Source: Planctomycetota bacterium (GTDB lineage: Bacteria > Planctomycetota > Planctomycetia > Planctomycetales > Planctomycetaceae). From it: DNA of 39,444 nucleotides. Under the pieces are notes generated by a model, which was not told where the DNA came from, did not search any database, and saw nothing but the letters and a program-made list of their open reading frames with translations. Shown here piece after piece: positions 24,795 through 37,123 of this stretch. The first letter of the stretch is position 1. Every line of letters starts with the position of its first letter. Made by a program: the position numbers and the translations under genes. The stretch spans positions 1-39,444 of the forward strand of contig JAFEBR010000747.1 in assembly GCA_018242565.1 (NCBI GenBank), written 5' to 3'.

Positions 24795-26690
24795 TCAGGT
24801 GGCCAGAATGCCTCCGGGACGACGCTGAAAATACCACCATTCCGCCAAGAGTAAGACAAACCCCACGACCGCGAACCAATGCCAGATCGGTCGATCGCTT
24901 TTGAGTAACGTCGACGCGGCGCCGACTTTCAGTTCGCGAAACTGCAACTGGTCAACGGTGCCCAGCGAAGATTCTGCGACCGACAGCAGGCTGACCCCGA
25001 CCGAGGCCAGTTCCGTTCCGCCATCCCGGATGGAGTATCGGCCATTGAGCGGGGCCGAGATGCCGGACAGGGTTCCGTCCACGCTGGATCGCACCTTCGA
25101 CACATTGCCATCAGGTCCCTGCACCTGGTACTCCTTCTCGGGCTGCAAATGCAGCGGAGGGAGAATTCCGGTCTGGTTCGCAATGACTTCCGACAACCCG
25201 GCTCGCTGCTGGGCGAGTTGCACGGAGTTTGAAACCAGAATCGGAAATCCCACGCGAAACGGCAGCGTGGAATGATCGGTATGGAACAGGAAATAATAGA
25301 GCGCCCGCTCGCCCGCTTCTTTGCGGACCAGCAGCGGGCCCGACCGGCCCTGTATCAGGATCTCGTATCCCAGTTCTTCAAAATCGCGATCGCGCACTCC
25401 CTCCAGCGAGACGGGACGATCGGCCAATTGCAGGTCCGTCAGCAGGACATGCTGCAGCAACGGGGCGTTTCGCTGCCAGTCAATCACTTGTCCCACGGCA
25501 TCATCGACGCGGATCAGTTTGGACAAATCATCAGGAACGACACCGATAAAAATAAACGTCTCGGCTTCCAGGTCCAGGTCGGTCTTGGAATCGGTCAGGA
25601 CCAGATCGTAGCTGGCAGCTTTGGAGTCGTCGTCGTCAGAGGGGTACAGCAGGACGTCTTTGATTCCCCGCAGGGCGTGCCGGTACGATTCCAGTTCGGT
25701 CGCGCAATACACCGCCAGAGGTCGGCCCGCCGGCAGGTCGAGCGATGCGACGTTGTCCATGGCGAGGGCATCAAAATCCAGGGGTTTCAATTGAACTTCC
25801 AGGCGTCGGGCGCCCTCGCCTTCGATCGGGAAGACGATTCGTTGCGATTGCCCTGGAGTCAATGAGATCGATTCACTGACCGGATCGCGCCCCGCGGTCT
25901 GCAAAATGACCTCGGCGTTGATCGGCGTTTCGTCGGTATCGCTCTCGCCTTTCGAGCCTTCGATGCGGACAAACACATCCCAGCGGTCGTTGACCCGTCG
26001 GGCGTTGACCGCCGTGATTCCAATGTTGCGACCGGCCGGATCGAGTTTCTGGTAGTTGAGCTGAAACGGGAGTTCAAAATCTATTTCCGGCGGAACATTG
26101 CCGTCGGTGTACAGAACGGCCGTCTCGATGGGAAAGGTGCGGGCCAGCGCCTGCGTCATTCGCAGGGCGTCATCGAGTCGACTGCTGACCTGCGACACCT
26201 GTACCTGCTCGAGGGCATCTCGCAATACCCGCTGATTGTCGGTGAAGTCGGTCAACTGACGGGCGGTTGACGAGACAGAGATCAGGCACAGTCGCTGTTC
26301 AGGCAGCAGGTTATCGATCAGTCGGCGAATTTCTTCTTTCGCCAGATCGAGGCGCGATTTTCCGCCATGGTCGACGGCGGCCATGCTGGCCGAGGTGTCG
26401 ATGAGGACCGGCAGATACTTGGCCCGGTCGGCCCCGCTGGGGAAAAAGGGCTGCATGGCGGCAACCACCAGGCAGAACAGCAGCAGCAGTTGCAGCAGCA
26501 ACAGCAGGTTGCGTTTGAATTTTTGAAACGGTGAGTTGACCCGCTGGTCGTTCAACACGCTGCGCCACAGCGCCAGCGAGGGAATGACATGCCGGGGCCG
26601 CTTCAACTTCAGGAAGTAGAAGATGATCAGTGGGATGAACAGCAGAAACAGCCAGGCCCATTGGCTGGCGATAAACGGCCACCAGGTCAT
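24795..26690 (-). CDS. BatA-like membrane protein with von Willebrand factor A domain
   Basis: Membrane-anchored VWA protein, 631 aa. The N-terminus matches the BatA domain: a first membrane segment (about 9-27), a cytoplasmic LKLKRPRHVIPSLALW stretch, and a second segment (about 61-80). The VWA domain follows at once with a full MIDAS, DTSASM (Asp98, Ser100, Ser102), and VLYTDGN further on. A long extracytoplasmic part leads to a C-terminal membrane segment (IWHWFAVVGFVLLLAEWW). BatA-type proteins work with MoxR ATPases and DUF58 proteins; the precise task is not established. ATG 26690 overlaps the DUF58 stop (ATGA), which decides between it and an in-frame GTG at 26699. The MoxR-DUF58-BatA order is the classical one. 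Confidence 0.87.
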   Translation of the reverse strand: MTWWPFIASQWAWLFLLFIPLIIFYFLKLKRPRHVIPSLALWRSVLNDQRVNSPFQKFKRNLLLLLQLLLLFCLVVAAMQPFFPSGADRAKYLPVLIDTSASMAAVDHGGKSRLDLAKEEIRRLIDNLLPEQRLCLISVSSTARQLTDFTDNQRVLRDALEQVQVSQVSSRLDDALRMTQALARTFPIETAVLYTDGNVPPEIDFELPFQLNYQKLDPAGRNIGITAVNARRVNDRWDVFVRIEGSKGESDTDETPINAEVILQTAGRDPVSESISLTPGQSQRIVFPIEGEGARRLEVQLKPLDFDALAMDNVASLDLPAGRPLAVYCATELESYRHALRGIKDVLLYPSDDDDSKAASYDLVLTDSKTDLDLEAETFIFIGVVPDDLSKLIRVDDAVGQVIDWQRNAPLLQHVLLTDLQLADRPVSLEGVRDRDFEELGYEILIQGRSGPLLVRKEAGERALYYFLFHTDHSTLPFRVGFPILVSNSVQLAQQRAGLSEVIANQTGILPPLHLQPEKEYQVQGPDGNVSKVRSSVDGTLSGISAPLNGRYSIRDGGTELASVGVSLLSVAESSLGTVDQLQFRELKVGAASTLLKSDRPIWHWFAVVGFVLLLAEWWYFQRRPGGILAT

Positions 26691-27592
26691 CGTACCCACC
26701 CCTTTCGGCGGAGCAGGTCAAACAACACCCAGTCCAGCGAGTCTTGCGAGGAGATCGACAAGAACCGGCCGGAACGCTGTCGACACAGAATCCCCAGTTC
26801 TTCTTCGAGCGCCAGGCGGTGCTCCTGGTACAGGCCCAGCAGGTCACCGGCTGATGTCACGTCGACGGCATGCCCGGATTCACAATCCACGAGCCGAATG
26901 TCACCATTGACGTCCGGGTGAATTTCCGAGGGACCCAGGATCTGGATGGCGAACACTTCCAGGCCGTTGCTGTACAGCCGATTCATGCATTTTTCGAGAT
27001 TGCCGAACGTCAGAAAATCGGACAGCAGCACGGCGATGCCCCGGCCCCGATGCCGGCGGAGCACCGCTTCGACGGCCTGCTCGATCGGAAAATCGCCACC
27101 GCCTTCGACATGTTCCAGAAAATCGAAGAGTCGTTTCCGGCTCACGCGCCCTGAACAGGGAGGCAGAAATACCGGATCTTTGCCCTTGTGATTACAGGAA
27201 AACACGCTGACGCGCTCGAGGTTCAGCAGGCCCATCAAGCCAAATGCGGCGGCCAGTTGGCGGGCGCGCTCGAATTTCCCTTCGAACTGCATCGAAGAGG
27301 AGGCATCGACAATCGAAACCACGTGCAATTCTTCTTCGTGTCGATACAACTTGACGTAAGGGCGCTCGAGTCGGGCGAAAATGTTCCAGTCGACATTGCG
27401 CACGTCATCGCCAGCGACGTAGTCGCGATAGTCGGCGAATTCTGTACTCGTTCCCCCCTTGGAGGAATGGTGCTCGCCCCGGGTGCGGTTTGTCAGCCGT
27501 CGTCGCGGCAACAGTCGCATTTTTTCGAGACGTGCCAGCGTCTCGTTCTCGAGCAGCGTGGTGAATCGAGCCTGAGGATTGAGCAGATTCAT
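26687..27592 (-). CDS. DUF58 family protein
   Basis: Cytoplasmic partner of MoxR-type ATPases, 301 aa. The DUF58 hallmark is plain: TEFADYRDYVAGDDVRNVDW (about 50-69), then NIFARLERPYVKLY. It runs into a VWA-like domain with MIDAS sequence DASSSM (Asp96, Ser98, Ser100). Many DUF58 proteins carry N-terminal membrane helices; this one has none, so it is of the short soluble class. It lies between moxR (112-bp gap upstream) and the BatA-like gene (4-bp overlap). Biochemical function is unknown for the family; metal-dependent protein binding through the VWA fold is likely. Confidence 0.92.
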   Translation of the reverse strand: MNLLNPQARFTTLLENETLARLEKMRLLPRRRLTNRTRGEHHSSKGGTSTEFADYRDYVAGDDVRNVDWNIFARLERPYVKLYRHEEELHVVSIVDASSSMQFEGKFERARQLAAAFGLMGLLNLERVSVFSCNHKGKDPVFLPPCSGRVSRKRLFDFLEHVEGGGDFPIEQAVEAVLRRHRGRGIAVLLSDFLTFGNLEKCMNRLYSNGLEVFAIQILGPSEIHPDVNGDIRLVDCESGHAVDVTSAGDLLGLYQEHRLALEEELGILCRQRSGRFLSISSQDSLDWVLFDLLRRKGWVR

Positions 27593-27704: not shown

Positions 27705-28736
27705 TCAGTTCCAGTTGCTGCCACCGTCTTCATTCAGGCTCCGCAGGCATTCCTGAATGAGATCGGGGCCGCGCATGTTCTCGGCCTGGCCGTCATAATT
27801 CAGCAGAATGCGGTGCTGCAAAACTTCGTTGGCGTAATGGCGGATGTCTTCGTAGGCGACATGCGCCCGGCCGTCGGCCAGTGCCCGCACGCGTGCCGCG
27901 CGAATCAGCGCCTGGGCCGCCCGGGGGCTGGCGCCCCAGCGCACATACTGCTTCACCCGCTCGGTGGCGAATTCCGAGGTGGGGTGGGTGGACAGCACCA
28001 GTCGCACGGCGAAGTCACGGATCGGGTCGGCGACCACCACCTTTTCCAGGACGCTGCGCAATTCCATGATCCGGGCGCCGTCGATGATTTTGTCGAGTTC
28101 GGCGCCCTTCTTCAAAATGGTGCGGCTGACGACTTCGTTCATTTCAGCGCGGGACAGAAACGGTACTTCGACCTTGAACATGAAGCGGTCGAGCTGCGCT
28201 TCCGGCAGGGGATACGTGCCCTCCTGTTCGATCGGATTCTGGGTGGCGAGCACGAAGAAGGGCTGTTCCAGGTGGTAAATCGTGCCCCCCGTCGTCACCG
28301 AGCCCTCCTGCATTGTTTCCAGCAGCGCCGATTGTGTTTTCGGGGAGGCGCGGTTGATTTCATCGGCCAGCAGCAACTGAGTGAAGATCGGTCCTTTGCG
28401 GAATTCGAACCGGTAACGCCCCATTTCGTCACTCGACATGATGTTCGTGCCGACGATGTCGGCGGGCATCAGGTCCGGGGTGAATTGAATCCGCCGGAAT
28501 TCCAGGTCGAGGACCCGCGACAGCGCTTTGACCAGTTCGGTTTTGCCGAGTCCCGGCACCCCTTCCAGCAGCACGTTACCGCCACAGAAGATGGCCGTCA
28601 GGGCGGCTTCGACCACCCGTGACTGGCCGACGATCACGCGTCCGACAGCCTCGCGGACGGTGGCAAATTCCTTTTTGAAATGTTCTGCCTCGGCCTGTAA
28701 CAAAGTCGGGTCGACGGTCAAGGGAATGGCGCTCAT
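27705..28736 (-). CDS. MoxR-family AAA+ ATPase
   Basis: Cytoplasmic AAA+ ATPase, 343 aa, the normal MoxR length. Walker A GVPGLGKT (59-66), Walker B LLLADEINRA (121-130), the SPKTQSALLEAMQE-like segment with Thr in this copy, sensor 1 ATQNPIEQEGTYPLPEAQLD (164-183) and arginine finger Arg184 in LDRF. MoxR proteins act as chaperone-like ATPases that mature or activate VWA-containing client complexes; the DUF58, BatA-like and double-VWA proteins encoded alongside are the obvious clients. ATG 28736 is used; no strong Shine-Dalgarno is seen. Confidence 0.96.
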   Translation of the reverse strand: MSAIPLTVDPTLLQAEAEHFKKEFATVREAVGRVIVGQSRVVEAALTAIFCGGNVLLEGVPGLGKTELVKALSRVLDLEFRRIQFTPDLMPADIVGTNIMSSDEMGRYRFEFRKGPIFTQLLLADEINRASPKTQSALLETMQEGSVTTGGTIYHLEQPFFVLATQNPIEQEGTYPLPEAQLDRFMFKVEVPFLSRAEMNEVVSRTILKKGAELDKIIDGARIMELRSVLEKVVVADPIRDFAVRLVLSTHPTSEFATERVKQYVRWGASPRAAQALIRAARVRALADGRAHVAYEDIRHYANEVLQHRILLNYDGQAENMRGPDLIQECLRSLNEDGGSNWN

Positions 28737-28823: not shown

Positions 28824-31800
28824 TCAGGACGAATCCTGCTGCCGCTTGCGTTTCAGATGCAGCAACCTCTCGGTCGTCGTCGTGGGATCGTCTGGCCGGG
28901 GTTGTTGCGGGGAGGGGGGCACATTCGGACCCGGTGTCGGTTTTTGCTCGCCGGAGGGCCGGGATTGTGGTTTCGTCAGTTTGCGCAGGGCCTCGGTGGG
29001 CAACGGGGTGTCGCCCCGGCGGGCTTCAATCTGGCTTCCCACGGCCTGTTTTCGTTCGAGAAGCGCGCCCATGGTGGCCGTTGAAACGGCTTTTCCGGGG
29101 CCCATTCCGAGCCACGATTTGATCATGCCGAAATCGATCTGCACCCGACGAATGGCGACATCCAGGGGAATCAGGCAGGCCAGCAGCACGAGGATCCAGT
29201 CGAAGATCGGCTTCGAACTGCGTTTGGGTTGACGATCGGTGTTGAAGATTTCGTCGGCTGTCGAATCGGCCGACAATTCGATGCCGCCGGTTCCCTTTTC
29301 AATATCGCGCAGGATCAACGGGTTCGAGCGGAAGCGCAGATATTCGGGTGAATAGGGAATGATGATGCCGCCAAAGGCCCGCTCATCTTTTCGCTCTTCT
29401 CCCGCTGCCGCGGCGACGATGTGGTACCGCCCCTTCCCCCATAAGGGGATCGAGGCCTGATACCGGCGCGGGCCGACTTGCTTCAATGGCAAGCGTTCGG
29501 AACGATCATGCGGCCCGGAAACACGGGCTTCGATCTCCAGGAAGGAGTCCTGTTCAGAGAAGTCTTCGACCACCACGACCCCTTCGTTTCCGGATGTGTA
29601 AGTCCACATCCGCAATTTGCCCGCTTTCTGCACCCGGGAAATCTCGGTGAAAAGCTGGTGGACGAAAGCCGAGTATTTGTCCCAGCCGATCCATTCGCCG
29701 CCCCAGTTGGGCGAGAGATCGGACGTGAAAGCGGCGGTCTTCCCTAACCCGTAACGTGTGATCGCGAGGATCGGATCAATATCGCCATCTTCTTCGGTCT
29801 GGTCTTCGGGGACCTGCAGCATCGTTTCGGCCGGCCGGCCTTTGGCCGTTGTAATCACATATCCCGTCAGCGGTGGCAGGCCTTCAATTCCCTTGAGGAC
29901 GCCGGGTTCTCCCACGACGTTGGGAGTGATGGTCTTATTTTGAATCATGCTGCGCTTCAGCGTTTTCGATTCTTTGATGAAAATCGAAGGCAACTGATTG
30001 GGATCTGACGGGAAGTAGTAGCGACCACCCGTCGCTTCGGACACGCGTCGCATCAGGCCGATTTCATTGCCGCCGTGGGGGAAGATGGCCACGGTCGACA
30101 CACTGATTTTGTTGTCGATGTATTCCTGGATCAGCGTGGGGGGCGGAGGCAGCGGGTCGCCATCGGAAATGATGATCATGTGCTTGGTGGCTGCGTCGCT
30201 CTTCTTCAGACCGGCCAGGCCTTTCTGCATGGTGCCGGTGAAGGTGGGCATATCGCCCGGTTCCGCGGCCTGAATCTTGACAGCAATCTTGTCGTATTCG
30301 GCGGCCGGGGTCAGTTCGACGGTCCATTTTTCAGTGCCGTTCTCGAAGCAGATCACCCCCACTTCATCCTGGGCACCCAGCACCTTGACGGCCTGTTTGG
30401 TGATGCGCTTGGCCCAGGTGTTCCCCTCGGCGAATTCGCAGGTGTGCAGAATGATGACGAGTGCGCCTTTGGGGAGCACCTTCTTCTGGCTGATGTCCAT
30501 CGTGACCGGCAGGGCTTCTTCCACGACCGTCCGGTGGTAGCCCCCTGGTCCGAAGCTGTTCGCGCCACCCACCATGATGAAGCCGCAACCGAAGTTGAAC
30601 ACGGCGTCACGCATGGCGTTCAGTTGAATCTGGTCGAAGGCATCAGCCGGCGCATTCACAAACGCGATGCAGTCGTAAGGCAGCAGCGAGGCCGAATCGC
30701 GCGGGAATTCATAGGCATTGCGAACTTCGACGGCGTGCTTGGTCTCTTTGAGCGCCTGGGCGATGGACTTCCAGTCGCGATCATCGCCCGACGGATCGGT
30801 CACCAGCAGAACTTTTCCTTCGCCTTCGAGGAACAGCGAATTCACCACGCGATTGTTTTTGTCGATGCTGTCTTTATCGCGGGGGACTTCGATGCGCGCC
30901 GTGTATTCATAGTAGCCGGCCGAACGGAGTTGCAGCGGAAACGCGTAGCGGTTTTTGCCCGCCTGAAACTTGACCGGTTCCTCGGCGATCTTTTCGCCGT
31001 TCTCTTCGATCACGAGTTTCCCTTCCCCGGCACTCAGCGATGACAGCACAATGCCGGCTTCGTAACTCTCGCCGATTTTGACGAACTGGGGCAGTTCCAG
31101 GCGTTCCAGCCAGACTTCTTCATTGATGTTGAATTGAATGGGCAGGACATCGACCGAAATGCCACGGGCTTTCAGGTCACCCAGGATTTTGGACAAGTCC
31201 CCTTCGGTCTGCATGCCGTCGCTGATGAGGACGATCCGGCCCTGGTTGTCTTCCGGCAGCATGGCGGCCGAGAGGGCCAGGGCCTGCGAAATGTTGGTGG
31301 CTTCTTTATCGATCAAGGAGTAGATCGGCAGGTTATTGTCTTCCAGCGGGATGCGCCGGTCGGCTTTGAACTCGACCGCGGCATTCTTCCCGAAGATGAC
31401 CAGCCCGACCTGATCGTTTTCGGGCTTTTTCGACGCGGTCTTGGCCAGGAATTCGAGTGCCTTGCCGGTCGAACCTTCGCTGATCGAATCCGAGACGTCG
31501 ATCGCGTAAATGACCGACAGATCTTCGCTGGTCCGGACGGCACGCGGCTCGGCCAGCAGGGCCACAAACAGCCCGGCCAGAATCAGTCGCAGTTCGAGTG
31601 CGATCAGCGAACGCGTGAAACCCAGGCCGGCATAACCCGCCAGATGCATCCACCAGATCCAGACGGTGAAGACCATCAGCCCGAAGGCGGCAGGCCGGGC
31701 GAAGAGTAAAACGTGACTCGATTCGAGATAAATGCACACTCCCAGAAACAGTGTCAAAAAGACACCCAGGGGGAGCGCGTCGGTCCACGTCAGCCGCTGT

Positions 31801-31847
31801 TTCGGCGGCGGGAACAGAGATTTCAGAATTCGTTGAGCGAGATTCAC
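28824..31847 (-). CDS. Large membrane protein with two VWA-like domains and an amidotransferase-like domain
   Basis: Membrane protein of 1007 aa. It has two or three N-terminal membrane segments (within about 25-105), a first VWA domain with intact MIDAS (AIDVSDSIS), and a segment (KVLLVTDPSGDDRDW through FIMVGGANSFGPGGYH) with the class-I amidotransferase-like fold seen in related planctomycete proteins. A second VWA-like domain starts at ALVIILHTCEF, where the usual DxSxS is lost, but retains IIISDGDPLP. A C-terminal membrane segment (IFDWILVLLACLIPLDVAI) precedes a basic, Pro-rich cytoplasmic tail of about 110 residues. The start is GTG 31847, supported by AGGGA 9 bp upstream (31857-31861). 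It lies directly upstream of moxR, so it is a probable MoxR client; its actual role is unknown. Confidence 0.85.
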   Translation of the reverse strand: MNLAQRILKSLFPPPKQRLTWTDALPLGVFLTLFLGVCIYLESSHVLLFARPAAFGLMVFTVWIWWMHLAGYAGLGFTRSLIALELRLILAGLFVALLAEPRAVRTSEDLSVIYAIDVSDSISEGSTGKALEFLAKTASKKPENDQVGLVIFGKNAAVEFKADRRIPLEDNNLPIYSLIDKEATNISQALALSAAMLPEDNQGRIVLISDGMQTEGDLSKILGDLKARGISVDVLPIQFNINEEVWLERLELPQFVKIGESYEAGIVLSSLSAGEGKLVIEENGEKIAEEPVKFQAGKNRYAFPLQLRSAGYYEYTARIEVPRDKDSIDKNNRVVNSLFLEGEGKVLLVTDPSGDDRDWKSIAQALKETKHAVEVRNAYEFPRDSASLLPYDCIAFVNAPADAFDQIQLNAMRDAVFNFGCGFIMVGGANSFGPGGYHRTVVEEALPVTMDISQKKVLPKGALVIILHTCEFAEGNTWAKRITKQAVKVLGAQDEVGVICFENGTEKWTVELTPAAEYDKIAVKIQAAEPGDMPTFTGTMQKGLAGLKKSDAATKHMIIISDGDPLPPPPTLIQEYIDNKISVSTVAIFPHGGNEIGLMRRVSEATGGRYYFPSDPNQLPSIFIKESKTLKRSMIQNKTITPNVVGEPGVLKGIEGLPPLTGYVITTAKGRPAETMLQVPEDQTEEDGDIDPILAITRYGLGKTAAFTSDLSPNWGGEWIGWDKYSAFVHQLFTEISRVQKAGKLRMWTYTSGNEGVVVVEDFSEQDSFLEIEARVSGPHDRSERLPLKQVGPRRYQASIPLWGKGRYHIVAAAAGEERKDERAFGGIIIPYSPEYLRFRSNPLILRDIEKGTGGIELSADSTADEIFNTDRQPKRSSKPIFDWILVLLACLIPLDVAIRRVQIDFGMIKSWLGMGPGKAVSTATMGALLERKQAVGSQIEARRGDTPLPTEALRKLTKPQSRPSGEQKPTPGPNVPPSPQQPRPDDPTTTTERLLHLKRKRQQDSS

Positions 31848-31869: not shown

Positions 31870-33708
31870 CTAAAACTCAACCGCCACCACTCGGCGGTTG
31901 CCGGTGTCTGCGACAAATACAACCGACTTGCCATCATGCGCGATACCCCACGGGGTAAAAAACTGGTCCGCATGGCTTCCGGTCGATCCATGTCGACCGA
32001 GTAATCGTCCGTGAATGTCGAATTTCGAGATCCGCCCTCCCGAATATTCCGCGACGAACAACTCCTTCTGGGAGTTGGCCACAATATCATACGGATAACT
32101 GAGCGCACTGGCAGCATCCCCTTCCGCCAGAACTTCCAGGAATTCGCCGGTTTCGGCAAAAACTTGAATGCGACTGTTGAAGGCATCGACGACATAGAGT
32201 TTGTGGTCGAGCCAGACCATGCCGCTGGGACGCTGAAACTGCCCTGGTCCGGTGCCGACGCTGCCGATCTGCAGCAGAAAGTTGCCGTCTTTGTCGAATT
32301 TCTGAATCCGGTCGTTTTCACCATATTCGCCGACGTAGTAGTTGCCTTCCGGATCTTCGACGATGGCCACAGGGTAGATGAACTCGCCCGGTCCGTGCCC
32401 CAGGCTGCCGTGCATCGACAGCACGGTCCCCTGGTCGTCGAAGAAGATCACGCGATGATAATGCGTGTCGGCGACCCCGAGTCGGCCGCTCTGAAACTGA
32501 AAGATCTTCTCGGGTTTGCCAACGGAATAGTCGGGCATCCACCACTGACGCAGGAGCTTGCCGTTCAGATCGTAGACCAGGACCCGACCGGCGTTGTCGA
32601 TGACAAACAACTCTTCGTGCAATCCGACATGAATGGCCCGGGGTGCGGGAATTTTCGCACCTTCCGCCGGGAGCATCCAGTTCTGAGTATGGCGCACGGA
32701 AAGTTTGGGCTCGGCGGAGGCCTGTGAGCAGCCACTCACAAAACATGCGAGCAGCACAAGGGCGAGCACATGCAAGATGACCCGTTGCCCTGCCTGCAGC
32801 AGGCTGGAGGTCGGACGGTGATACACGCGGCGACACTCTCCTGAGCGTTCGTCGCGGATTTCCAATTCGCCGATCGAACCCGCAAAGGTCGAGGTCTGCA
32901 CGACCAGCGGGCTGTTCGGGGCCGGTTCGGCGTCGAGTTCTTCGGGGCGATAGCAGCGCCGGGTACTGGGGCCGCCAGTCATCCAGCGCGCCTGTTCGTC
33001 GGCTTCAACCCAATTGGCCGGCCCCAGGGCCCACGCCAGGTCGGCCGTGGGGGGATTATAGTAAAGTTCTGGCACACTTCCGGAATACACGGCACGTCCT
33101 TCGGCCAGGCAAATCACCTGTTCCGCCTCTCGCAGTACCACCTCAGGTGAATGTGTCGAAAAAACCAGAGACGTGCTCGACGGTTCCCCCACCAGGGTTC
33201 GCAGGCGATCCCAATATCTTCGCGAAGCCGCCGGATCCACGTGGACCAGCGGTTCATCCAGTACCAGAATCTGGGCTCCACTGGCGATGGCGCGCGCCAC
33301 CGCCAGGCGCGTACATTCTCCCTGGGAAAGTTGATCGGGATAGGCCCCGAATTTGTCTGCAAAATCAAAGGCCGCCAATAATTCTGCGACCCGGCGGTCG
33401 GCCAGGTGGTTTTCGGGAATTACCGTCTGCAGGTGTTGCGCGACAGTCAGATGGGGCCACAAGCCGTTGCCTGGAGGGCTCCAGAAGACCGGCAGGCGTT
33501 GGGGGTCGCTGCTCGGACTGGGACTCAGAGTGCCCGCATCGGGTTGCTCAAAACCCGCCAGCAGATTCAGCAACGATGTTTTACCGGCCCCAGAATGGCC
33601 GAGGACCGCCGTCCGTCCGGGTTTGATCTCTAATGAAACGGCTGCCAGTCGCGGACGCAGATTGCCGCGCAGAGTCACCTGATCCAGTTTCCAGAGCGGT
33701 GCCGTCAT
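31870..33708 (-). CDS. ABC ATPase fused in frame to a six-bladed NHL propeller with lipoprotein-type anchor
   Basis: A single open frame of 612 aa. Residues 1-215 are an ABC ATPase of the Fe3+/thiamine/molybdate importer class: Walker A GHSGAGKT (37-44), signature LSQGE (127-131), Walker B ILVLDEP (147-153), H-loop His186. The Q-loop region reads PVFWSPPG, with Trp76 where Gln is expected. A TOBE-like domain (about 250-312) ends in LQAGQRVILHVL. This runs directly into a hydrophobic stretch (309-325) ending in a lipobox, VSGC, with Cys327. Six NHL blades follow to the C-terminus (for example FVIDNAGRVLVYD, YYVGEYGENDRIQKFD, FVADTGNRRVVAVEF). Read as one protein, the ATPase is cytoplasmic and the propeller outside. 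Alternatively a separate lipoprotein of 318 aa starts at GTG 32826. ATG 33708 overlaps the permease stop (ATGA). Confidence 0.85.
   Translation of the reverse strand: MTAPLWKLDQVTLRGNLRPRLAAVSLEIKPGRTAVLGHSGAGKTSLLNLLAGFEQPDAGTLSPSPSSDPQRLPVFWSPPGNGLWPHLTVAQHLQTVIPENHLADRRVAELLAAFDFADKFGAYPDQLSQGECTRLAVARAIASGAQILVLDEPLVHVDPAASRRYWDRLRTLVGEPSSTSLVFSTHSPEVVLREAEQVICLAEGRAVYSGSVPELYYNPPTADLAWALGPANWVEADEQARWMTGGPSTRRCYRPEELDAEPAPNSPLVVQTSTFAGSIGELEIRDERSGECRRVYHRPTSSLLQAGQRVILHVLALVLLACFVSGCSQASAEPKLSVRHTQNWMLPAEGAKIPAPRAIHVGLHEELFVIDNAGRVLVYDLNGKLLRQWWMPDYSVGKPEKIFQFQSGRLGVADTHYHRVIFFDDQGTVLSMHGSLGHGPGEFIYPVAIVEDPEGNYYVGEYGENDRIQKFDKDGNFLLQIGSVGTGPGQFQRPSGMVWLDHKLYVVDAFNSRIQVFAETGEFLEVLAEGDAASALSYPYDIVANSQKELFVAEYSGGRISKFDIHGRLLGRHGSTGSHADQFFTPWGIAHDGKSVVFVADTGNRRVVAVEF
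32824..32842 (-). promoter_or_regulatory. Internal Shine-Dalgarno and GTG inside the ATPase-NHL gene
   Basis: Minus-strand AGGAGAG (32836-32842) is followed after 9 bases by an in-frame GTG (32824-32826, codon 295 of the fusion). Initiation here would give a protein starting VYHRPTSSLLQAGQRV, with a hydrophobic core and lipobox VSGC at residue 33, a normal lipoprotein signal peptide, leading into the NHL propeller. This Shine-Dalgarno is better than those of most genes in the window. Whether it is used is unknown. Confidence 0.5.
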
Positions 33709-35306
33709 CGCCAGAGCCAAACCGAGAGGAATCGTCGAGACCAGCCTGCGACCGCGAAGATCCCGAGCGGGATGAGGACGGTCAGCAGAACCAGCGCAGA
33801 GAGAGTTGCGTTCTTGCCGAAGTGCATTTGATTGTAGAGCATCACGGGGGCCGAGACTATCGTGACCGGCGCCAACAACGAGGCTGTGGTCAGGTCAAAA
33901 AAGGCCCAGTACGCCAGGACGACGACACCCCAGAATTCCCTCCGCCAGCGCAGTTTCCAGAGGAGTTCACCCGCGGCCCCCCGCACCCTGGGCGCGGGGG
34001 CAACCGACAGCAGGCGCGCCAGGTGGCTGCCTTGTGTGGGAGTCGAGTTTTGCAGCAGGGCACGTAACAGGAAGCCACGCGGCAGCAACCACAGCACGAG
34101 GCCCAGCAGCAGTGAGACGGGTGTTTTATAAATCAGCCGCAGTCCAGGCTCCTGCAACAGGCGAATCAATGCCAGTCCGGTCACCAAAGGTCCGATCAGC
34201 CCCGGGCCAGAGCACAGACACAGGCTGATCGTGCCCCAGCGCGTGCTTTGGGCGCGGCGCCATAAGATCGCCACGGCGAAGGTCGTCAACCCGGCCGCCG
34301 TCAGGGAGTAAACCAGCCCCGCTCCGATTTCCGAGAGTAGCGTGCGGAATTGCGAGGGGCTTTGCACGACTCGCCACAAACCATTCCAGGTGTCGCGCCC
34401 GACGTGTAATGCCGGCAGGCCGATCAGGAAGAGCAGTCCGAGACCAATGGCCAGCCAGGAAACGAGGCTGGTGTACCAGTGCCGGGGCGCTGGCTCGCAG
34501 GCGTTGGTTGTTGCCGAGGCTCGCTGCCGAAAGGCCCAGATCATTAATGGCAAAAGCACCGTGGCCTGACAGAGCACAGGCAGAAGTGTTTTCCGTAATG
34601 ACTCAGTGAGCGCCAGGCCACCCACTTGAGCATCGAACAGCCAGACGGTCCAGGCGGGGCGGCCCAGCAATGAAGCCAGTTCAAATTCCTGAAACGTCAC
34701 TAGTGTCATGAGTGCCCAGGCGGGCCACCGTGCTCCCTGCCGTTCCAGCCAGAATTGCAGAGACGCGCGCCACCGGTTGTATCGCGGGTTCCCGGTCTGT
34801 TCCCGTGTGCTGGTGTCGCGAGGGCTCAATTCGGCAGGACCTGCCTGATCGCCCGCCGTGCGAACGGGAGTGTGCATGATTCGGGCCGTCGGGGACGTCG
34901 CTTGTTGCCAGCAATACCAGGCAGCGCGAGAAACTCTGGGCGGAGGGGCGAAGTAGAGTGCCAGCGTTCCCACGGGGATCGCCCGAAACAGCAACAGCAG
35001 GTCGAGGAGCACCTCATCGACCAGGGCATCGCGCCCCAGGATGGCGAGTGGTTGCCGGGTGCCCGTTCCCGCCGCCGACGGCCAGAGCCCCATGCCGGTC
35101 AGCCGGGCTGCAAAGCCCGACCAGGCGTAGCCCGTCCACAACTCGGGGCACAAGAACGGCAGGAAGACGAGCCACCAGGCCCAGGCACGACGGCGGTCGG
35201 AGAGACTTCGCAGCCAATTGGTCTGAACTCGGCACAGGGGCCAGGCGACGAGACCCACGACCAGGCTGCGTGCGAGACTGTAAACGCAGGCCTCTGTCAT
35301 CGTCAT
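33705..35306 (-). CDS. ABC transporter permease, binding-protein-dependent type (FbpB/ThiP-like)
   Basis: Integral membrane protein of 533 aa with about ten to twelve hydrophobic segments, the size of double-length FbpB/ThiP/AfuB-type permeases. The second half has an EAA-like cytoplasmic loop (GAAGELLWKLRWRREFWG) followed by a hydrophobic stretch reaching APVTIVSAPVMLYNQMHFG, as in iron(III)/thiamine permeases; the first-half loop (NRWRASLQFWLERQGARW) is degenerate. A hydrophilic, low-complexity insert of about 50 residues (around 145-195) is probably cytoplasmic. ATG 35306 begins MTMTEA. The gene overlaps the ATPase-NHL gene (ATGA), so the two form a transporter pair. No binding-protein gene lies nearby, so substrate and even direction of transport are uncertain. 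Confidence 0.75.
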   Translation of the reverse strand: MTMTEACVYSLARSLVVGLVAWPLCRVQTNWLRSLSDRRRAWAWWLVFLPFLCPELWTGYAWSGFAARLTGMGLWPSAAGTGTRQPLAILGRDALVDEVLLDLLLLFRAIPVGTLALYFAPPPRVSRAAWYCWQQATSPTARIMHTPVRTAGDQAGPAELSPRDTSTREQTGNPRYNRWRASLQFWLERQGARWPAWALMTLVTFQEFELASLLGRPAWTVWLFDAQVGGLALTESLRKTLLPVLCQATVLLPLMIWAFRQRASATTNACEPAPRHWYTSLVSWLAIGLGLLFLIGLPALHVGRDTWNGLWRVVQSPSQFRTLLSEIGAGLVYSLTAAGLTTFAVAILWRRAQSTRWGTISLCLCSGPGLIGPLVTGLALIRLLQEPGLRLIYKTPVSLLLGLVLWLLPRGFLLRALLQNSTPTQGSHLARLLSVAPAPRVRGAAGELLWKLRWRREFWGVVVLAYWAFFDLTTASLLAPVTIVSAPVMLYNQMHFGKNATLSALVLLTVLIPLGIFAVAGWSRRFLSVWLWR

Positions 35307-35452: not shown

Positions 35453-37123
35453 TTACTTGTTGTCAGGGGACTCATTTTTCACAGGTGCTGCCGACTTGCT
35501 GTCCTTCTTCCCTGTCTTTTCGAAGTTGTCGAAATAGCTCTTGATGCCATCGTGGTAGCCGGGGGGGACCTGTTCCTGCAGAATGGCTTCGCTGTACCCC
35601 TGTTTTACGGCCTGTATGGCCGATTTGTACTGCTTGCTGGCGTCACCCTTGTCACTCAATCCCTTGGTCTTGACCGACAAGAGCACTTTGCCCGCCGTGA
35701 CGGGCGATTTGGATTGTTCCGGCTTGAAATCGGTGGCAATGGAATCGTCTTCCGGGACCTTGCCCCCTTCCCCCATGCCTTCGCCGCCCGTGCCCTCGCC
35801 ATCCCCTTCGCCGTCTTGAGAACCCGACATGCCCAGGTCGGCCAGAAGCTGTTCATAGAACTCGGCGTATTCTTCCATCGTTGTTGCGCCTTCGGCTTCG
35901 CCATCGAGCTTTTCGGCGTCGTTCAACTGCTTCGCCATCTGGGCCACTTTCAAAGCTTCTTCCAGGGCCTTGAGGTCCTTCGCCGACTGGGCGATTTCCT
36001 TCAATTCCATTTTCGTCAGGTCGAGCGATTTCTCGGCGGCTTCCAGGGCTTCCTGGTCCATGCCTTCCATGCGGGACATTTCCATCTGTTTCATGGCCCG
36101 TTGCAGCGCGGCTGTCAGCGGTTTCGAGTTGACTTTTTCGCTCGCGAAATCAGAGAGCTCTTTCATGCGTTTCTTGATCTGCTTCTCGAGATCGGCCTTT
36201 TTGGCCGGATCGTCGGTTTTTGCCAGCTGCTCAAGATCTTTTTTGATCTCTTCCAGTTCCTGTTGGAGGGCCTTGGTGGACCCTTCCTGAAGTTCCTTGG
36301 TCCATTTCTCGAGCTTGTCTTTATTCTGGGAACCGAACTGCTGACCCTGCTGTGCCTGTGTCAGCAGTTGTTTCAGCTTTTCGCTGCTCAGTTTTTTCCA
36401 CTTGTCACCCAGAAACTTCTGCTGGCCGACGAGTTCCTTGAGGTTATCGGCCTTCTCTTCGGGCTTCATCTTGTTGAGAGCCGTCTTGAGATTTTCGATG
36501 GCTTTCTTGGTGTCTTCCGACAGTGGACCTTCGGTTTCTTCTTTCTGCAGCATGGCCAGTTTGGCATCGGTCGCCTTGGCCGACTCGACCAGTTCTTTCT
36601 TCCGCTCGTTGACCTGCTTCGCGGCCTGGACTTTGCCGAACGGATCGAACTGGGGGAGCCAGAGCACCGCGGCCAGAACCAGGGCGCTCACAAACCCGGC
36701 ACGGACCAGTCGCCGAGACCATTGAAAGGGAATGATCGCAACCGGCTGCACCTTCTCGGCGCATTTTTCGGCCGCGTCGGCGACCAGAGGCTGGTAGGCA
36801 CCGGCCGTCTTTTCAATCAGCGCGACGGTTAGGAACAGATCTTTTGTTCCCTGGCGTGAATCGACGGCTCGTGCCGCGTCCACGGGGGTCGGGCGTTTAT
36901 GCCACAAGACACTGACCAGCAGTGCCACCAGGGGAATCGCGACCAGAGTGGTCGGTTCAACCCACTCGGACCAGAGGCCTGCCAGACGGCTGGCTAACAG
37001 AAACGCGGCGTAGAGTCCGCAGCAGGCCAGAAACGTCACATACAGGCGACTGCCAATCGAGGCCATCCGCAATCGGAACGCCACGCGGCGCAGTAACTGT
37101 GATGAGCGAGGTAATTCAAACAT
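35453..37123 (-). CDS. Membrane-anchored coiled-coil protein, DUF4175-like, unknown function
   Basis: A 556-aa protein with three N-terminal membrane segments (about 27-46, 59-74 and 139-155). A very long Lys/Glu/Gln-rich helical region follows (about 165-415) with heptad-like patterning (for example KALQQELEEIKKDLEQLA), then a Gly/Glu low-complexity linker (about 430-455) and a charged tail ending in a Lys/Asp-rich stretch. The layout resembles DUF4175-type proteins, but I would not assign it firmly. A good GGGAGAG lies 7 bp before ATG 37123 and a plausible promoter just beyond, so this may be the first gene of the 26-kb minus-strand run. A structural or scaffold role extending from the membrane is inferred from shape only. 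Confidence 0.75.
   Translation of the reverse strand: MFELPRSSQLLRRVAFRLRMASIGSRLYVTFLACCGLYAAFLLASRLAGLWSEWVEPTTLVAIPLVALLVSVLWHKRPTPVDAARAVDSRQGTKDLFLTVALIEKTAGAYQPLVADAAEKCAEKVQPVAIIPFQWSRRLVRAGFVSALVLAAVLWLPQFDPFGKVQAAKQVNERKKELVESAKATDAKLAMLQKEETEGPLSEDTKKAIENLKTALNKMKPEEKADNLKELVGQQKFLGDKWKKLSSEKLKQLLTQAQQGQQFGSQNKDKLEKWTKELQEGSTKALQQELEEIKKDLEQLAKTDDPAKKADLEKQIKKRMKELSDFASEKVNSKPLTAALQRAMKQMEMSRMEGMDQEALEAAEKSLDLTKMELKEIAQSAKDLKALEEALKVAQMAKQLNDAEKLDGEAEGATTMEEYAEFYEQLLADLGMSGSQDGEGDGEGTGGEGMGEGGKVPEDDSIATDFKPEQSKSPVTAGKVLLSVKTKGLSDKGDASKQYKSAIQAVKQGYSEAILQEQVPPGYHDGIKSYFDNFEKTGKKDSKSAAPVKNESPDNK

Follow-up and report, generated by a model that had tools for sequence, protein, structure and literature searches.

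A planctomycete gene with an internal lipobox between an FbpC-like ABC ATPase and an NHL propeller, a probable precursor of two proteins

Architecture of the fused gene

The window analyzed here is a stretch of 39,444 nucleotides (contig JAFEBR010000747.1) from a bacterium of the Planctomycetaceae. On its minus strand, from position 33708 to 31870, a single uninterrupted frame of 612 codons encodes an ATP-binding cassette (ABC) ATPase, a hydrophobic stretch and an NHL propeller. The plus strand is stop-rich over the same positions, and the fused frame is found on the minus strand only. The open reading frame (ORF; 31870–33708), which combines an FbpC-like ATPase with a putative internal lipoprotein signal and the propeller, likely starts at the ATG at 33708, giving a product of 612 residues. 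This ATG overlaps the stop codon of the upstream permease gene by 4 nt. The longest version of the ORF (31870–33720, 616 residues) begins with a TTG at 33720, which is a possible alternative start.

Both halves of the protein are recognized by Pfam (ABC_tran, 3.1e-21; NHL, 1.3e-12). The AlphaFold model (pLDDT 91.5, pTM 0.53) displays an OB-like domain and 24 propeller strands, corresponding to six blades. The junction is of low confidence, and the ATPase and propeller domains have no fixed mutual orientation.

Residues 1–313 (32770–33708, minus strand) form the ATPase with its TOBE-like C-terminal domain. All motifs are complete and coincide with invariant columns, namely Walker A around G37–S45, the signature at S128-G130-E131, Walker B at D151-E152 and the switch residue H186. 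In profile comparisons, FbpC (3fvq) and the iron ABC ATPase 9j4r match the ATPase over its C-terminal domain too, up to position 312–318; the fold comparison likewise ranks 9j4r first among ABC proteins (Foldseek, 9j4r_B, TMt 0.78). Pfam TOBE gave no match in the fused protein; the TOBE-like domain is assigned from the 3fvq and 9j4r alignments together with Foldseek. An importer-class ATPase with such a domain had been described in an earlier note on this DNA, made from the letters alone, and the retained catalytic motifs and the extent of the alignments agree with this description. The propeller half (31873–32730, minus strand), the predicted mature lipoprotein if the chain is cleaved, combines NHL repeats with six four-stranded blades in the Pfam, model and fold comparisons, and is thus the six-bladed NHL propeller that the note had proposed.

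Junction between the two halves

The two halves are connected by the putative internal signal segment R309–C327 (RVILHVLALVLLACFVSG followed by Cys; 32728–32784, minus strand). R309 and C327 are separated by 17 residues, and the stretch ends with FVSGC, the codon of the lipobox cysteine C327 occupying positions 32728–32730. In the AlphaFold model, residues 309–314 also form the last TOBE strand, which leaves 12 residues (315–326) before the cysteine. With its hydrophobic core, positive n-region and a cysteine preceded by a small residue, the segment has the features of a lipoprotein signal, situated at residues 309–327 and not at the N-terminus of the precursor.

The junction was compared among 73 fused proteins, comprising a first set of 50 and 23 fetched later. 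The cysteine is present in all 73. The hydrophobic stretch of 17 residues ending in a lipobox (VSGC), as read in the earlier note, is borne out. Position −1 is Gly in 71 proteins and Ser in two; many columns around the lipobox are only 20–40% identical. In the later 23 junctions the cysteine was picked by a rule preferring Gly, Ala or Ser before it, which makes them weaker evidence on position −1; its site lies at the homologous place every time.

In genomes outside the window's family, the NHL proteins are mostly lipoproteins in their own right, encoded beside VWA and MoxR genes. These standalone lipoproteins of the Planctomycetia, located next to VWA-MoxR-DUF58 genes, share the same propeller (36–40% identity outside the family), carry a lipobox in six of seven examples and in most cases have the same downstream genes. 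Unlike the fused gene, they possess their own start codon and an N-terminal signal. The uncharged stretch from the last charged residue to the cysteine spans 12–17 residues in the 50 fused proteins and 9–26 in standalone NHL lipoproteins, the charge is +2.7 versus +2.2 before the stretch and −1.5 in both groups after it, and Gly occupies position −1 in 49/50 and 27/28 proteins, respectively. Positive residues before and negative residues after the stretch support an N-in/C-out orientation of the segment, and with it the extracytoplasmic propeller suggested earlier. Twin-arginine-like motifs precede the lipobox at the N-terminus of L095 and at those of the substrate-binding proteins (SBPs) L069 and L070 (RRQFLCNAG..., SRRAFLG...), which suggests that some lipoproteins of this system may be exported by the twin-arginine pathway.

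Fused and split relatives

Both halves lie in one stop-free frame in at least 72 of 170 genomes of the window's family, some of them single-contig assemblies, and two further family genomes are cut by contig ends yet span the junction. The nearest named relatives recovered are Schlesneria, so this family is probably Planctomycetaceae. Outside the window's class, the two halves were found fused three times and split once, and genes for SBP, coil, VWA and MoxR proteins can be recognized nearby. About 50 family genomes contain two genes instead, either adjacent in the same order or at separate places; the search of relatives for a fused or split state, called for in the earlier note, thus recovered both. 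The NHL protein of split relatives is an ordinary lipoprotein with the same signal features, and their ATPases end approximately 8–20 residues past the same TOBE glycine.

A tree built from the propeller part requires about nine changes between fused and split states, four of which are forced by well-supported branches. The fused gene of G044 and the split genes of G043 belong to well-supported sisters of the same genus, and the split pair G099/G100 adjoins fused lineages. The splits in G043 and G099/G100 are best read as fissions of a fused gene. Because G043 is split while its sister G044 is fused, the covalent link seems dispensable. In these fission cases, and in G052, the TOBE domain has been lost from the ATPase, suggesting that the ATPase can do without this domain after its separation from the lipoprotein signal. 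Split loci that are related to fused ones and encode an ATPase without TOBE domain are L098, L072, L073 and L071. In G020, an otherwise fused gene (L074, 2770–4623) carries a TAA inside the ATPase half and represents either a pseudogene or an assembly error. Open frames of 1033–1166 residues in five genomes were considered as triple fusions with the permease and rejected, as they merely run beside the permease in another frame.

Processing of the fused product

We propose, with a probability of about 0.7, that the gene encodes a precursor which is cut by the lipoprotein signal peptidase LspA into a cytoplasmic ATPase and an envelope lipoprotein. One chain would be translated, in which the last TOBE strand of the FbpC-like nucleotide-binding domain (NBD) runs into the lipoprotein signal segment, followed by the NHL propeller. 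Sec would insert the internal signal in N-in/C-out orientation, Lgt would attach diacylglycerol to C327, and LspA would cut between G326 and C327. The freed NBD (~326 residues, perhaps trimmed further) would serve the adjacent permease, while the propeller would become an envelope lipoprotein and probably work with the VWA, MoxR, DUF58 and BatA proteins of the same cluster. Loss of a stop codon between two adjacent genes would have created the fusion, which would fix equal synthesis of both products. Cleavage by LspA is favored because the Gly/Ser–Cys pair is invariant, the core has the length of a lipoprotein signal, the homologues are standalone lipoproteins, genes for both Lgt and LspA are found in the window's own genome, and the folded TOBE strand is separated from the cysteine by only 12 residues. 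After the predicted cut, the tail of the ATPase would be similar in length to the longest tails of split ATPases.

Several points weigh against this proposal. Position −3 is non-canonical (C, S, Q, W or G) in 20 of the 50 fused proteins of the first set. A lipobox about 326 residues into the chain, behind a folded cytoplasmic domain, would be unusual for Lgt and LspA. The fusion is both widespread and ancient, which might also mean that the link itself is of use. Furthermore, the suggested co-operation between the propeller and the VWA/MoxR proteins is drawn solely from gene order.

The alternatives differ in what becomes of the chain. If it were left uncleaved, the NBD would be anchored by a single transmembrane segment, its cysteine possibly lipidated, and the propeller outside could couple sensing to ATP hydrolysis. 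The single frame lacking a conserved internal start, the N-in/C-out charge pattern and a fused state kept in more than 70 species are all compatible with such a chain. However, a folded TOBE domain would leave no room for an ordinary transmembrane helix, because the 12 residues remaining before the cysteine in the model appear too few for a membrane span. In addition, Gly or Ser at position −1 is always kept, as needed by LspA, whereas lipidation alone has no obvious need for it, and split sisters exist. In type I importers such as MalFGK2, moreover, the C-terminal regulatory domains face away from the membrane. The proposal of the earlier note, a membrane-crossing NBD as the mature form, is not supported, since both the short gap and the invariant pair point to cleavage, and we consider an uncleaved chain unlikely. 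The corollary that an importer NBD spans the membrane by a lipidated segment and thereby lets ATP hydrolysis respond directly to an outside ligand or to the state of the envelope appears slightly less likely still. A mixed state, in which slow or regulated cleavage lets full-length and processed forms coexist and their ratio controls transport, would be in line with some fused proteins having a non-canonical residue at −3 but is judged quite improbable.

Alternatively, translation of the NHL lipoprotein might initiate within the ATPase gene, the fused frame being incidental. An ATG, GTG or TTG does occur 14–40 codons before the cysteine in 59 of 73 junctions. Examined codon by codon, however, such codons are missing from the other 14, are no denser near the junction (1.52) than elsewhere in the ORFs (1.71), are not conserved in position across the 73 junctions, and are preceded by a Shine-Dalgarno-like 4-mer in just 8/73. 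Internal initiation is therefore no general explanation; one would, moreover, not expect merely overlapping independent genes to keep an open frame in more than 70 genomes, and this alternative is not favored and has a low probability, though not quite as low as that of the mixed state. An assembly or sequencing artefact might be suspected, as the draft source genome comprises 1252 contigs. This is refuted by the more than 70 related genomes with the same frame, several of them single-contig assemblies, which leave it a negligible chance. The same frame in at least 72 family genomes confirms the one-frame fusion described in the earlier note and, together with three genomes outside the class, excludes that a sequencing error erased a stop codon near codon 300.

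Gene neighborhood and transport system

The adjacent upstream gene (33705–35306, minus strand) encodes the partner permease of 533 residues. It gave no Pfam match and no PDB match in sequence-profile searches. Its AlphaFold model (pLDDT 88) matches FbpB of the 9j4r complex end to end (Foldseek, 9j4r_A, E 1.9e-9, 536 columns), and by fold comparison it is of the FbpB-like double-length type. Since the ATPase matches 9j4r and 3fvq and the permease fold matches FbpB of the same complex, the transporter is Fbp-like. In common with the ferric importer FbpABC (FbpBC in 9j4r, FbpC in 3fvq), the system comprises an NBD with TOBE-like domain, a full-length FbpB-like permease fold and, in relatives of the window locus, a binding protein of the SBP_bac_8 type. 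In contrast to FbpABC, the ATPase chain runs on into the lipoprotein signal and propeller, the permease is too divergent for Pfam, and the SBP is encoded outside the operon in the window genome.

The usual gene order is coil protein, SBP, permease, ATPase-NHL, a VWA protein of ~1000 residues, MoxR, DUF58 and BatA. All corresponding genes of the window lie on the minus strand: the membrane/coiled-coil protein (35453–37123), conserved upstream according to gene clusters and, like its homologue, without Pfam match; the conserved VWA/GATase1-like protein downstream (28824–31847; Pfam and gene clusters); the MoxR AAA ATPase (27705–28736); the DUF58 protein (26687–27592); and the BatA/VWA membrane protein (24795–26699). 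Most of the loci examined in other families of the class have a standalone NHL lipoprotein gene ahead of the VWA-MoxR genes, and no ABC genes of the importer system were seen upstream of it there. The fused gene hence unites the final gene of an importer operon with the opening gene of an envelope operon.

As stated in the earlier note, the permease in the window has no SBP gene beside it, with 146 bp to the next gene, so that the cognate SBP of an Fbp-type operon is missing here. An SBP gene (SBP_bac_8) lies directly upstream of the permease in 20 of the 25 fused loci with longer flanks, as well as in the distant fused loci L157–L159. In the same-genus genome G001, the SBP is part of the operon and the ATPase frame is open up to the contig end. 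The window genome itself has two SBP homologues on other contigs, 65–67% identical to the SBP of L048. In view of the SBP in most fused relatives and of these two homologues, the propeller is unlikely to substitute for the binding protein, and the corresponding suggestion of the note is not supported. The two SBP genes of Fbp-like operon type (L152, G000:C12, 5995–7140; L153, G000:C998, 5995–7035; both minus strand) have no neighboring permease, and one is near a contig end.

Comparison with known systems

A single bacterial ORF giving two proteins is known from the cytochrome b/c1 precursor FbcH of Bradyrhizobium, in which an internal signal peptide parts the products. In the window gene the products would likewise be parted at an internal signal. 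FbcH differs in being of the signal peptidase I type and in yielding subunits of one complex, whereas here the signal bears a lipobox and the proteins would belong to different compartments. Open-literature searches on the fusion, internal lipoboxes, bacterial polyproteins and FbpC/TOBE geometry returned nothing relevant.

MoxR-vWA-beta-propeller ternary systems, with all three components in one neighborhood, have been described (PMC7159879), and MoxR, vWA and propeller are also neighbors in the window. Unlike in the published systems, the window propeller is a separate predicted envelope lipoprotein, and Pfam detects no propeller in the VWA protein at 28824–31847. Membership in these systems was rejected, as the propeller is not fused to vWA.

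If the proposed cleavage is correct, planctomycetes would use the lipoprotein signal peptidase to split a polyprotein, and the output of a cytoplasmic transporter ATPase would be tied one-to-one to an envelope lipoprotein of the neighboring module. Internal lipoboxes could then be genuine and might be missed by N-terminal signal predictors, and annotation and topology prediction of such "fusions" could mislead. The naturally split and fused sister species make the cleavage question directly testable.

The fusion cluster with coil, SBP, VWA, MoxR, DUF58 and BatA genes also occurs outside the class (L157, L158 and L159), for which either horizontal transfer or an older origin could account. At the end of the window contig (38967–39443, plus strand), the first part of a trpD-like gene (anthranilate phosphoribosyltransferase) can be discerned by eye.
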